NCBI GenBank assembly: GCA_009711615.1
Contig: VENI01000002.1
Span: forward strand, 124,001-188,000
Direction: 5' to 3'
DNA from: Bacillota bacterium
GTDB lineage: Bacteria > Bacillota > Desulfotomaculia > Desulfotomaculales > Desulfohalotomaculaceae
DNA length: 64,000 bases
A program made the translations under genes and the position numbers. The notes under the pieces are model-generated. The model saw only the letters and a list, made by a program, of their open reading frames with translations. It did not search any database and was not told the DNA's origin. Shown here one piece after another: positions 12,102 through 54,368 of this stretch. How positions within the stretch are numbered: the first letter of the stretch is position 1; every line of letters starts with the position of its first letter.

Positions 12102-12143
12102 AAGAAAAGAGATCTGAGCTTTTTACCCAGATCTCTTTTTCTT
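12102..12143. terminator. Bidirectional terminator
   Basis: AGAAAAGAGATCTG and CAGATCTCTTTTTCT form a long stem between convergent genes. It serves the membrane protein gene and the selenoprotein gene that ends at 12150. Confidence 0.85.
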
Positions 12144-12149
12144 AACAGC

Positions 12150-13103
12150 TTATTTTTCCATCGGTAATGATGGGTCTGCTGCCCACTCATAAATAGATCC
12201 CTCGTAGTTTCTAACTTTCTCAAAGCCAACGGCTCTGAGGATCGTGCTCATATAGCCCGATCTTATACCCATAGTTCAGTAAACTACAAAGTCATCTTCG
12301 GGGGTTATCCCTACATCAGCCATTATCTTCTTAATTTTTTCCGGTGATTTTGGAGTTGCATTTTCATTTAGCAGTGATGACCACAAAAGATGCTTTGCTC
12401 CTTTTATGTGTCCACCTCTTGCTTCACCTGCATTTTGGCTACCCTGATATTCCTTTTCCGTTCTAGCGTCGATAATTACTATCTGATCAAGGCTTTTAGA
12501 AATATATTCCTTTTTTGCTCTGTAACTTTCATCAAAATCTTTGAGAACAAGACCTGTAGTTGGCGTAGGTTCTGGTGCTTGGTCTTTGGTAGTTTCATAC
12601 CCCAGTTCTTTCCAATACGGATTTCCTCCATATAGGAGCTTAACATTATCGAGTCCGGCCATTCTAAGCTGCCATACGTTTCTGCCATCAGAACCTGGGC
12701 CAGGAAGTACATTTGAAGTAAATACTACAAGCTTGTCATTAGTTACCCCATATGATTCAAGTCTTTTAGTAAGCTCATCCTTTTCCAGAGTTGTTCCCCA
12801 CAAAGGGTCCCCTGGTTTTCCTACTACTTTGGAAAACCCATGGAAACCAACTCCTATTGCTCCAGGAATATGTCCCTTTCGGTATACATTGGATTTGCTG
12901 GTATCAAATAAGACTAAATTGGGATCTCCCAGTTTTTCTTTTAGCTCCTGGGGGGTTATAAATATATCACCATTCTTGTAGACTGAAAGATCCGGTGGTT
13001 CAGACTGGGCTGAATTTGTATTTTTTTCATTCGAGCATGCACTTAATAATAGCATTGAAACTAATAAAAGTATTAGTATGCCAAAAAGATTCTTTCTAAA
13101 CAC
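12150..13103 (-). CDS. Two-domain rhodanese lipoprotein with in-frame UGA, probable selenoprotein
   Basis: Sulfurtransferase-like lipoprotein, 317 residues if the TGA at 12276-12278 is read as Sec276. The signal peptide ends in the lipobox LSAC (Cys23). Two rhodanese domains follow (about 38-165 and 175-317); the first has TSN where a catalytic Cys would be expected. The second has the normal IVIIDARTEKEYQG and RGGHIKGAKHL. Conventional reading stops after EDDFVVY, exactly before the active-site loop. Reading through gives U-TMGIRSGYMSTILRAVGF, then NYEGSIYEWAADPSLPMEK to a TAA at 12150, a full rhodanese C-terminus with U at the catalytic Cys position. The alternative is a Cys-to-stop mutation or sequencing error. 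Neighbours: a TVP38 protein 47 bases upstream, then the ArsS cluster. Confidence 0.85.
12240..12262 (-). promoter_or_regulatory. Candidate bacterial SECIS hairpin
   Basis: Begins 13 nt after the UGA. On the minus strand GATCG and CGATC pair, a g/a mismatch follows, then GCT and AGC pair around the loop ATATG. Position and size fit bacterial SECIS elements, which need a short stem-loop within about 40 nt downstream of the UGA. Confidence 0.65.
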
Positions 13104-13150: not shown

Positions 13151-13825
13151 TTAGTTGCTATCTATAATCTCCTTTCCCTCTTCTTTTTTATCTTTAAAAA
13201 CTTGTTTGATCAGCACTAATAATGCGCTTAAAGCAAATAATATTAATAAACCCATTACAAATGTCTTAGTAGTACCGGTAAGCATGCCTCCAACATAGGA
13301 ATAAACAATTGTTGCTGGCAACTGGCCAATACCTGTGGCAATAAAAAATGGCCAAAACCTCATCGCTGTTAATCCAGCTCCATAACTAACGATATCGAAT
13401 GAGACAAACGGCAACAGCCGAGCAATTAAAATGGCATACTTTCCATAAAGTTCAAAGAATTTATCAACTTTCTCTAAAGCAGTCCTCGAAGTAAGTTTTT
13501 CTACAAATTCTCTTCCTAAGAACCGTGCAATATAAAAACACAATGCAGCACCGGCCATTGCACTGGACCAAGAAAGAATTGCACCCTTTACCCAGCCAAA
13601 CAAACCTGCATTAGCAAAGGTAATAATAAATGCCGGCAGGGGTGCAGCTATGGACTGAAAAATCATTAGAAAAAATGAAGCAACAGGAGCCCAAATGCCA
13701 AATCCTAAAATGTACCCTCTTGCCAAATCAACATCAACATTACCGAGAATGAAAAAAGCTTGGTTTACATTAATCTTTATTATTGGTATAAAGTAATATA
13801 AAGCAAAGGCCAAGCATAGTATCAA
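13151..13825 (-). CDS. TVP38/TMEM64 (VTT domain) membrane protein
   Basis: At least 224 residues, with five to six membrane segments. The VTT/SNARE-associated core is recognisable: PLPAFIITFANAGLFG, GAILSWSSAMAGAALCFYIA, LGREFVE, ILIARLLPFVSFDIVSYGAGL and GIGQLPATIVYSYVG. The superfamily includes DedA and TVP38 proteins linked to lipid or ion handling; the cargo is unknown. The TTG at 13825 has no ribosome site. The frame stays open to 13867, and a GGAAGGG site at 13877-13871 is 9 bases before an ATC at 13861, which would add a basic N-terminus (RNIFTGYKSK). The true start may therefore be a non-AUG codon. It lies between arsS and the selenoprotein gene. Confidence 0.85.
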   Translation of the reverse strand: MILCLAFALYYFIPIIKINVNQAFFILGNVDVDLARGYILGFGIWAPVASFFLMIFQSIAAPLPAFIITFANAGLFGWVKGAILSWSSAMAGAALCFYIARFLGREFVEKLTSRTALEKVDKFFELYGKYAILIARLLPFVSFDIVSYGAGLTAMRFWPFFIATGIGQLPATIVYSYVGGMLTGTTKTFVMGLLILFALSALLVLIKQVFKDKKEEGKEIIDSN

Positions 13826-13895: not shown

Positions 13896-14924
13896 TTACG
13901 CGGTTGCCCCACCGCAGCTTGAACCAGCCCCAGCGGTACAGGCATAACAATGATTATGTAGTTCAATGTGTCGCTGTTGCAAGGCCGCTAAATCAAACTC
14001 TCGGATGTGTCCGGGTTGGCAATTAAGCCCTAGCATTTGGTTAAAGTCACAATCATATAATTGCCCTTCCCAGCCTACGGAAATCATATCTCGGCACATC
14101 ACTCGATCAGCCGCAAGCGGATTAAACGCTCCAGCCAATTTGTCCATATACCGGGGTAAATTACCGGATTGATGTAGAAAGGTTAAAAAGCGCCCTACTG
14201 GGACATTGGTGATAGTTAAAAGGTTATTAAAAACTATCCCATGACGGTCTCGTAGTTCTTTGCGAAAGTCAGCTTCTATGGAGTGCTGAGCTGGTGGCAA
14301 AAATGCACCACCAGGATTGTAAACTAAATTAAGTTTTAAAGGACTCTGTTTCTGGCTGTAACCTAGATTGTTTAAATCCCGCAGAATCTGAATAGAAGTT
14401 TCAAAAACCCCCTGCCCCCGTTGTTTGTCTGTATCTTTATCCCGGTAGTAAGGTAGTGAAGAAACCAACTCAACGTTGTGCCGGGCATATAATTCCATTA
14501 AATGGGTATATTCCGGTTGACTTAAAACAGTTAAGTTGGTACGTACCATCACCCTGCGTCTAAGCTTGTTGGCTTCTTCAATAAACCATGGCAGATGTGG
14601 GTTTAATTCTGGGGCACCGCCGGTGATATCCAAAGTTGTAATATCAGTATCAGCCAATACCCTAAGACACTGAGCCATAGTTTCCAGGTTCATTGATTCT
14701 GTTCGGTGAGGTCCAGCATTTACATGGCAGTGTTTACAGTACATATTACAAACTTTACCAACATTTGTTTGCATGATCTTGATGTCTTTACTCTTTAATG
14801 GGTAAAGATTAGTTTCTTTAATTTTTTCTACAAAGGGGGTTATGTTATTAACTCTTTCCAAATGGGTTAATTGAAGTTCCTGATCATTTTCGGAAACTTT
14901 GGCTATTACTGAACTCTGATTCAT
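13896..14924 (-). CDS. arsS: Arsenosugar-biosynthesis-type radical SAM protein ArsS
   Basis: 342 residues. Radical SAM enzyme with the cluster motif C59-x3-C63-x2-C66 (KVCNMYCKHC), TLDITGGAPELNPHL as the SAM-binding GGxPE region, and a DUF3641-type C-terminus ending HCYACTAGAGSSCGGATA (Cys326, 329, 337). In cyanobacteria ArsS makes a 5'-deoxyadenosyl-arsenical en route to arsenosugars. Some family members carry Sec in the C-terminal motif; here all are Cys and the gene ends in TAA. ATG start, with a modest AAAGGAG site. It is 17 bases downstream of the peroxidase-like gene in one minus-strand unit. No arsenic methyltransferase is nearby, so the real substrate is open. Confidence 0.88.
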   Translation of the reverse strand: MNQSSVIAKVSENDQELQLTHLERVNNITPFVEKIKETNLYPLKSKDIKIMQTNVGKVCNMYCKHCHVNAGPHRTESMNLETMAQCLRVLADTDITTLDITGGAPELNPHLPWFIEEANKLRRRVMVRTNLTVLSQPEYTHLMELYARHNVELVSSLPYYRDKDTDKQRGQGVFETSIQILRDLNNLGYSQKQSPLKLNLVYNPGGAFLPPAQHSIEADFRKELRDRHGIVFNNLLTITNVPVGRFLTFLHQSGNLPRYMDKLAGAFNPLAADRVMCRDMISVGWEGQLYDCDFNQMLGLNCQPGHIREFDLAALQQRHIELHNHCYACTAGAGSSCGGATA

Positions 14925-14941
14925 TGATATACTCCTTTAAG

Positions 14942-15274
14942 TTAAAACCCCAATTTTTTAATGATATTTTTCATTTGAACACCGTGGACCAATGTGGCCC
15001 CTCCCCGAATGGCTGATGCCACGTGGATTGCTTCTGTCATTTGTTCCTCATTAACTCCCTTTTCCAGTGAATCCTCAGTATAGGCCTCAATGCAGTATGG
15101 ACACTGTACTACATGGGCTACAGCCAGGGCTATTAAGGCTTTCTCCCTACTGGTTAGGGCACCGTCCTTAAATACCTCTCCATAATAGCTCATAAATTTT
15201 TTCCACAGTTCCGGTGATTCTTCTCCAACAGTAGCAAATTTGGCTAGATCGGCGGGGTTATAATATGTTTCCAT
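14942..15274 (-). CDS. Arsenosugar-cluster peroxidase-like protein (AhpD/CMD fold)
   Basis: 110 residues of the carboxymuconolactone decarboxylase/AhpD fold: EKALIALAVAHVVQCPYCIE with redox Cys58 and Cys61, then the helix VNEEQMTEAIHVASAIRGGA. This subgroup is known by family annotation as the peroxidase-like companion of ArsS. The start is METYYNPAD at 15274 after AAAGGATGAATAAA, one base after the stop of the upstream glycosyltransferase gene, so coupling is likely. A longer ORF from a TTG at 15292 overlaps that stop. Confidence 0.85.
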   Translation of the reverse strand: METYYNPADLAKFATVGEESPELWKKFMSYYGEVFKDGALTSREKALIALAVAHVVQCPYCIEAYTEDSLEKGVNEEQMTEAIHVASAIRGGATLVHGVQMKNIIKKLGF

Positions 15275-15275
15275 T

Positions 15276-15959
15276 TTATTCATCCTTTCCAACTAATTTA
15301 TTTTTGGCTAAAAAGTTCGCCGTTCTTTGGGGAAACCAATCAGCCCTTATTTTCCCTTTAGTTAAAGTCCTTTTTAAATTCAATAAGTCTATAGGCCAAT
15401 CTATATCTTCAAGGGGTGGCAGTAAACTGTATTGCAGGTTAATATCTTTACAAATGGTTTCTGTCTGCTGTAATACTTGGCTAGTTCCCCAACTGATTCC
15501 CTTAAAGATCCTACTTTCAGGGCAAGACAATCCGACCATATAATAGCCGCCATCCATTGTAGGACCAAAAACTATGGGTTTATTCTTTAGCCTTAGTAAG
15601 GCTTGCACCAAATAGTCTGGTGGCAAGGTAGGGCTATCTGTGCCAGTAATCAACACCCTACTAAAACCCTGTTCAAATAATTTCTTGGCCACAGAAAACA
15701 TGCGTACTCCTAAATCTCCGGCAGGCTGATTAATCTTATTTATCTCTCCAAACTTTGTCTCCATTTCGTCGGCCTGATCCTGAGGAGTTATCGCTAAAAA
15801 AACAGAAAGCCCCTTTATTTGATGAGCCTTGTCCAAAATGTCCCCCAGAAATGCCCACTGTAATTCTTCTCGCTGGCCAGAGGTTAATAAAGTCGCTAGA
15901 CGACTTTTACCACCAGAGGAAGGCACCTTCGCCATGATAGCCAAGGCAGTTTTTTCCAT
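15276..15959 (-). CDS. TIGR04282/DUF2064-type glycosyltransferase
   Basis: 227 residues of the CofC/MobA-like nucleotidyltransferase-glycosyltransferase fold. Visible landmarks: MAKVPSSGGKSRLA at residues 9-22 (the sugar-nucleotide loop), LITGTDSPTLPPDYL near 103-117, GPTMDGGYYMVGL near 130-142 and ISWGTSQVLQQT. This family is annotated in arsenosugar clusters beside ArsS, where it is thought to handle a sugar intermediate. ATG start after AAGGAGTGAGGAA. First gene of the minus-strand unit; the TIGR04283-type gene diverges from it 68 bases away. Confidence 0.85.
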   Translation of the reverse strand: MEKTALAIMAKVPSSGGKSRLATLLTSGQREELQWAFLGDILDKAHQIKGLSVFLAITPQDQADEMETKFGEINKINQPAGDLGVRMFSVAKKLFEQGFSRVLITGTDSPTLPPDYLVQALLRLKNKPIVFGPTMDGGYYMVGLSCPESRIFKGISWGTSQVLQQTETICKDINLQYSLLPPLEDIDWPIDLLNLKRTLTKGKIRADWFPQRTANFLAKNKLVGKDE

Positions 15960-54189: not shown

Positions 54190-54206
54190 ATTATCTCTGC
54201 ACAATA

Positions 54207-54292
54207 ACTCTTCCCTACGCTGGAATTAACCAGATCAGGTTCAAAGGGTCGGAGAATTAACTCCTCTCAGCCTTAACGACTCCCCCAGAGCT
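54207..54292 (-). promoter_or_regulatory. TPP riboswitch (THI element)
   Basis: Minus strand contains GGGGGAGTC, GGCTGAGAGGAG, ACCCTTTGAACCTGATCTGG and TAATTCCAGCGTAGGGAAG in order, the conserved arms of the thiamine pyrophosphate aptamer. In the thiC leader, ligand binding should favour the downstream terminator. The remainder of the 54071-54530 gap holds an AGGAGTCAG repeat and the divergent promoter of the TauE gene. Confidence 0.95.
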
Positions 54293-54368
54293 GATACCAT
54301 TATAATTAAATTTTTAATGTATAGTCACAACTAAGGCATTCAGATTAGTCATTATATGTTATTCACTC

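Follow-up and report, generated by a model that had tools for sequence, protein, structure and literature searches.

Relation to described rhodanese selenoproteins

Rhodaneses with a predicted selenocysteine (Sec) were reported in 2005 and 2008 (PMC1088965, PMC2398784), and the table of a 2026 review lists five forms of them (PMC13188914). In the 64,000-nucleotide (nt) stretch of Bacillota contig VENI01000002.1 analysed here (positions 124,001 to 188,000; the window in the following), a gene on the minus strand at 12150-13103 appears to encode another such protein, a two-domain rhodanese lipoprotein with UGA in place of the catalytic Cys codon. The closest described counterpart is 'form 4' (COG2897/cd01449; UxxG; Sargasso Sea and GOS), which shares with the window protein the two-domain layout, the predicted Sec at the catalytic Cys and the UxxG motif. 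It stems from marine metagenomes, and the description consulted here mentions neither a lipoprotein anchor nor a VTT neighbour nor a two-hairpin selenocysteine insertion sequence (SECIS). The remaining rhodanese selenoproteins (forms 1-3, TsoB as form 5, and NCBIfam NF041203 and NF045694) likewise combine rhodanese domains with a predicted Sec. The two NCBIfam models give the window protein scores well short of their cut-offs (33.6 of 115 bits and 23.8 of 805 bits, respectively). Since rhodanese selenoproteins have been predicted before, the window protein represents a new clade among them. The new part, as judged from the sequence, is the predicted two-hairpin SECIS, the putative recognition loop of which lies outside the published range. 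We found no description of a two-stem-loop or spacer-type bacterial SECIS in the open literature, the coverage of which was not exhaustive. The review does state that certain bacterial SECIS elements deviate from the consensus model and could constitute classes of their own (PMC13188914).

Our preferred reading, to which we assign a probability of about 0.75, is that the gene encodes an exported, lipid-anchored Sec sulfurtransferase and that its UGA codon 276 is recoded through a two-hairpin SECIS.

A rhodanese gene with an in-frame UGA at the catalytic position

The gene has the following features:

12150..13103, minus strand: predicted selenoprotein gene, from GTG start to TAA stop, for a rhodanese lipoprotein of two domains and 317 residues including Sec276
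12276..12278, minus strand: codon 276 (TGA), interpreted as selenocysteine and corresponding to the catalytic residue of rhodaneses (UTMGIRS) according to homologue alignment and AlphaFold2 (AF2) model
13035..13103, minus strand: predicted signal peptide with lipobox LSAC and lipid-anchor Cys23
12105..12139, minus strand: intrinsic-terminator-like hairpin just beyond the TAA, with 15 pairs and a T run (consensus match only)

With translation table 11, an open reading frame of 275 residues (13103-12276, minus strand) is closed by the TGA at 12278-12276. Translation past this codon bore out the initial annotation of the locus, which had described a frame continuing for 41 codons to a TAA (12152-12150) and coding for a rhodanese C-terminus; the end of the rhodanese domain, TMGIRSGYMSTILRAVGFEKVRNYEGSIYEWAADPSLPMEK, is encoded there. 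The product of 12150-13103 matches Pfam Rhodanese (2.1e-30) with two domains and places the active-site residue in the C-terminal one, which is the COG2897-like layout. In the AF2 model (predicted local distance difference test score 86.6), residue 276 is located between a strand (272-275) and a helix (280-291), while the matching loop of domain 1 is free of Cys in the sequence. A Foldseek comparison of this model with the two-domain thiosulfate sulfurtransferases PDB 1uar, 3p3a and 3aay revealed a common fold over both domains (template modelling scores 0.74-0.86) at 25-28% identity. These enzymes also carry the catalytic residue in the loop of the C-terminal domain, but it is Cys there as opposed to the predicted Sec of the window protein. 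The product is a predicted lipoprotein, given the LSAC motif, read as a lipobox, and a Cys23 that does not vary among 12 aligned homologues.

A scan of GTDB contigs yielded 12 relatives, all 12 with TGA at the position of codon 276. The homologue searches covered 113 genomes of the class and 398 of the phylum. Here, full-length matches of at least 449 bits contained exactly one in-frame TGA each (one locus, in genome G027, was reported as two pieces with the TGA on the second), and full-length matches below 300 bits contained none. Altogether, 22 distinct TGA-bearing homologue sequences were found. In the closest relatives without TGA the motif reads CTxGIR with TGT or TGC as the Cys codon, and UTMGIR aligns with it, in agreement with the earlier proposal that the TGA occupies the site of the catalytic Cys. 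Cys codons at this site occurred only in the more distant relatives, whereas all close homologues have TGA, which argues against a sequencing error. In a tree with 21 Sec sequences, these formed one clade with a support of 100/100 and the Cys sequences fell outside, so that a single gain of Sec suffices. The clade comprises Bacillota (Peptoclostridium, Desulfosporosinus, Pelotomaculum, Acidaminobacter), Fusobacteriota and one metagenome-assembled genome (MAG) labelled Actinobacteria, a label that could be due to a binning error.

Standard gene calling ends the open reading frame at the TGA, and if this were a true stop the gene would specify a truncated lipoprotein of one and a half domains, followed by a relic or an artefact of sequencing. 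We consider this extremely improbable: all relatives of the clade conserve the TGA and the next 41 codons at both the protein and the RNA level, a stop here would remove the rhodanese catalytic motif, and the terminator-like hairpin (12139-12105) comes after the TAA, starting 10 nt downstream of it. A pseudogene or a sequencing error was ruled out because the TGA and the downstream frame are kept throughout the clade.

Two side observations concern further copies. A MAG of Peptoclostridium sp. (bin6) harbors near-identical Sec rhodanese copies on two contigs (L029 and L040). A decayed copy (L131 936-1016; G098:C118) has TCA (Ser) at the TGA site and stops in the upstream frame; it retains the first of the two hairpins described below with a further compensated pair, and the second is disrupted.

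Selenocysteine machinery of the source genome

The genome holding the window (3.17 Mb, 19 contigs) was inspected for the Sec machinery, and selD was surveyed across the class. Adjacent selA and selB genes, selD, and selC with anticodon TCA were all detected, making the machinery, for which the initial annotation had recommended a search, complete. The selD gene has an in-frame TGA of its own. So does a gene for the formate dehydrogenase alpha subunit, with a score over the cut-off of its family. Another formate dehydrogenase-related match, a weaker one, contains a TGA as well. That the rhodanese gene product is a selenoprotein is well supported at the sequence level, and it appears to be a surface sulfur-transfer enzyme with selenocysteine in the active site.

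Another reading considered is that a suppressor tRNA inserts Cys or Trp at the UGA in place of Sec. The genome does encode a tRNA-Sec-like tRNA-Cys, of which versions with a UCA anticodon are known from elsewhere (PMC7609411). This explanation would render a SECIS-like hairpin superfluous, and we regard it as very unlikely, if marginally less so than a true stop. The tRNA-Cys in question was rejected as a UGA suppressor: its anticodon is GCA, not UCA. Among the eight best hits of the genome to the tRNA-Sec model, selC was the only one for which ARAGORN gave a TCA anticodon. The tRNA-Cys (GCA) itself (L021 1497-1593, minus strand, corresponding to G000:C3:227250-227342) has a long variable arm, scores 52.6 bits against the Rfam model for tRNA-Sec and matches the selC* tRNA-Cys described in PMC7609411; an ordinary tRNA-Cys (L026) is present as well.

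Two adjacent hairpins downstream of the UGA

Downstream of the UGA the following elements were found:

12240..12262, minus strand: HP1, the first hairpin, spanning nt 14-36 downstream of the UGA, proposed SECIS spacer hairpin
12219..12239, minus strand: HP2, the second hairpin, CUCAGAGCC-GUU-GGCUUUGAG, spanning nt 37-57 downstream of the UGA, putative stem-loop for recognition by SelB

HP1 is the 23-nt stem-loop already noted in the initial annotation; it follows 13 unpaired nt and is present at 12262-12240. HP2, the more conserved of the two and not listed in that annotation, has its loop at 12230-12228 and directly adjoins HP1. The RNA downstream of the TGA folds better than chance, with z = -3.8 relative to dinucleotide shuffles and z = -5.1 relative to synonymous-codon shuffles of the same peptide (0/400). 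Both hairpins occur side by side in nearly all Sec sequences, mostly with fold energies well below those of synonymous shuffles, and 92.2% of the alignment cells over HP1 and HP2 are paired versus 28-47% in slid versions. In HP1 the sequence varies and pairing is kept: two pairs show changes on both sides, and the register is shifted in some rows. Because of these shifts, RNAalifold recovered only the base of HP1 together with HP2 from the alignment.

HP2 is conserved at the level of codons. Pairwise codon identity over codons 289-294 is 0.858, the top window of the gene, compared with 0.388 upstream of the TGA, and Leu and Arg, each with six possible codons, are encoded by CTC and AGA in 12 of 12 sequences. 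Exceptions in further loci are rare (CTT in L048, CTA in L040, AGG in L044 and Lys AAA in L034); in L040, a copy at a contig end, the CTA for CTC breaks one HP2 pair. In the Cys relatives codons vary freely over the HP2 region, and position 291 is Met, Asn, Ser, Ile or another residue but not Ala. Codon fixation in the Sec sequences and its absence from the Cys relatives would be expected if selection acts on the RNA. The hairpins are conserved in homologues with TGA and missing from those with Cys. When the 113 genomes were searched with a covariance model of the two-hairpin element, nothing was retrieved beyond the Sec rhodanese genes, the decayed copy and two weak near-chance matches, indicating that the exact element is not common to other genes. 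The Rfam gathering scan of the window reported a thiamine pyrophosphate (TPP) riboswitch and no other family.

Which hairpin serves as the SECIS

According to the bacterial SECIS consensus as given in the review, G occupies one of the first two loop positions, usually as G[G/U], the loop lies 16-37 nt from the UGA, and the stem has 4-16 bp with a minimum free energy of -7.5 kcal/mol or lower (PMC13188914). The rule on G in the loop is obeyed by HP2 in all 22 sequences (G[U/G]N) and by HP1 in none of 22. The stem and energy values of HP2 fall within the consensus in 21 of 22 (-8.0 to -11.9 kcal/mol; -5.9 in L040). In Fusobacteria Gly replaces Val at the HP2 loop codon, turning GUN into GGN, and the loop rule still holds. 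The initial annotation had put forward HP1 as the SECIS. This hairpin is real and conserved, but its loop breaks the published rule to which the adjacent HP2 conforms, and HP1 is probably not the loop recognised by SelB. The earlier assignment would have HP1 bind SelB at the usual spacing and leave HP2 an auxiliary role, e.g. in slowing the ribosome or stabilising the mRNA. It has in its favour that the HP1 loop, at 22-23 nt, lies within 16-37 nt and that pairing is kept through two-sided changes; we nevertheless regard it as unlikely, as the strongest conservation sits in HP2, and the HP2 loop belongs to the type found in selD (GUN) and also fits the GGUCU of the formate dehydrogenase genes in the same genome.

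In these formate dehydrogenase genes a GGUCU loop is found 18 nt from the UGA, and HP1 is missing. The same distance was counted for GGUCU in E. coli fdhF (sequence confirmed in 5,368 genomes). HP2 resembles the bSECISearch model and the fdhF SECIS in its short stem and apical G[G/U]N loop and differs from them in the distance of the loop (45 nt, not 16-37 nt) and in the conserved hairpin in between. The selD genes of the class (29 genomes) have a well-supported GUN-loop hairpin (AUG in one) at 33 nt, with 97.5% of cells paired and two-sided changes at three pairs. It is preceded by a 15-nt region that is 76% paired, with one pair showing three pair types and with a shifted register or little pairing in some rows. 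The selD element thus shares with that of the rhodanese gene an HP1-type pairing followed directly by an HP2 with a GUN loop; unlike in the rhodanese gene, its HP1 is weaker and measures 15 nt, and the 33 nt to its loop fall inside the published spacing. Subtraction of the first hairpin leaves 18 nt (33-15) in selD and 22 nt in the rhodanese gene. As these distances come near the 18 nt of formate dehydrogenase, the simplest account is that HP1 acts as a folded spacer, and from this comparison we infer such a role. Whether anaerobic Bacillota have a distinct SECIS class, represented by rhodanese and selD, in which a spacer-subtracted distance of about 18-22 nt and not the linear spacing is the real constraint, seems to us evenly balanced.

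In the mechanism that we propose, SelB and Sec-tRNA(Sec) would recode UGA 276 under the guidance of the two-hairpin SECIS. HP2 would present the apical G[U/G] loop for recognition by SelB, and HP1, by folding out, would shorten the effective distance between the UGA and HP2 to 22 nt. Sec would then take the place of the persulfide-forming Cys in the C-terminal rhodanese domain of an exported, lipid-anchored sulfurtransferase. That it might raise the nucleophilicity of the sulfurtransferase loop, as the initial annotation suggested, would make chemical sense.

Alternatively, HP2 may be the SelB ligand at a tolerated distance of 45 nt, with HP1 holding the ribosome at its mRNA entry or hindering release factor 2. 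With the UGA in the A site, HP1, beginning 14 nt past this codon, would be close to the point at which the mRNA enters the ribosome. The proposal leaves the closeness of the subtracted rhodanese and selD distances to that of formate dehydrogenase unexplained. It is compatible with the spacer model, not exclusive of it, and we regard it as possible though rather doubtful, ahead of HP1 as the SECIS.

Several points weigh against the two-hairpin reading. The HP2 loop, at 44-45 nt, is beyond the published limit of 37 nt. Its first base is also set by the Val or Gly codon, both of which begin with G, and the evidence from the loop therefore depends in part on the protein. Two sequences, L034 and L037, fold no better or little better than their synonymous shuffles. 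HP1 is constant in length across the rhodanese family, so that the spacer idea leans on selD, where HP1 is weaker (76% paired) and the effective distance differs (18 versus 22 nt). Several relatives are MAGs, and Sec in the rhodanese protein is itself inferred from sequence.

The Sec rhodanese family offers a clean, highly conserved case with controls from the same genome (formate dehydrogenase without HP1, selD with a short HP1) and leads to a simple hypothesis: the folded, not the linear, distance counts. If this is true, the rules of selenoprotein prediction need to change, search programs restricted to 16-37 nt would overlook genes of this kind, and more selenoproteins may hide as 'truncated' genes.

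Gene neighbourhood

Upstream of the rhodanese gene the window contains:

13151..13825, minus strand: VTT-domain (DedA/TVP38-like) membrane protein, upstream neighbour (Pfam VTT, 2.3e-28)
13896..15959, minus strand: arsenosugar-type cluster of ArsS radical SAM protein, AhpD-like peroxidase-like protein and TIGR04282 glycosyltransferase (NCBIfam TIGR04167, TIGR04169 and TIGR04282, above cut-off)

A VTT gene lies directly upstream of the Sec rhodanese gene in 20 of the 20 loci checked. Arsenosugar-type genes adjoin it in the window, in Pelotomaculum, in Desulfosporosinus metallidurans and in several relatives of the class; in Peptoclostridium and Fusobacteria a nearby gene for an Fe-S oxidoreductase takes their place. 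In Fusobacteria, a rhodanese-VTT fusion protein (L039 2755-3822) is encoded beside a VTT and Sec-rhodanese pair, suggesting that rhodanese and VTT protein work together. An extracellular transfer of sulfur (or selenium) coupled to the VTT protein is plausible, and the physiology of anaerobes would gain a probably surface-exposed selenium sulfurtransferase that always stands beside a VTT membrane protein. The TPP riboswitch of the window is located at 54195-54296 on the minus strand (75.7 bits).
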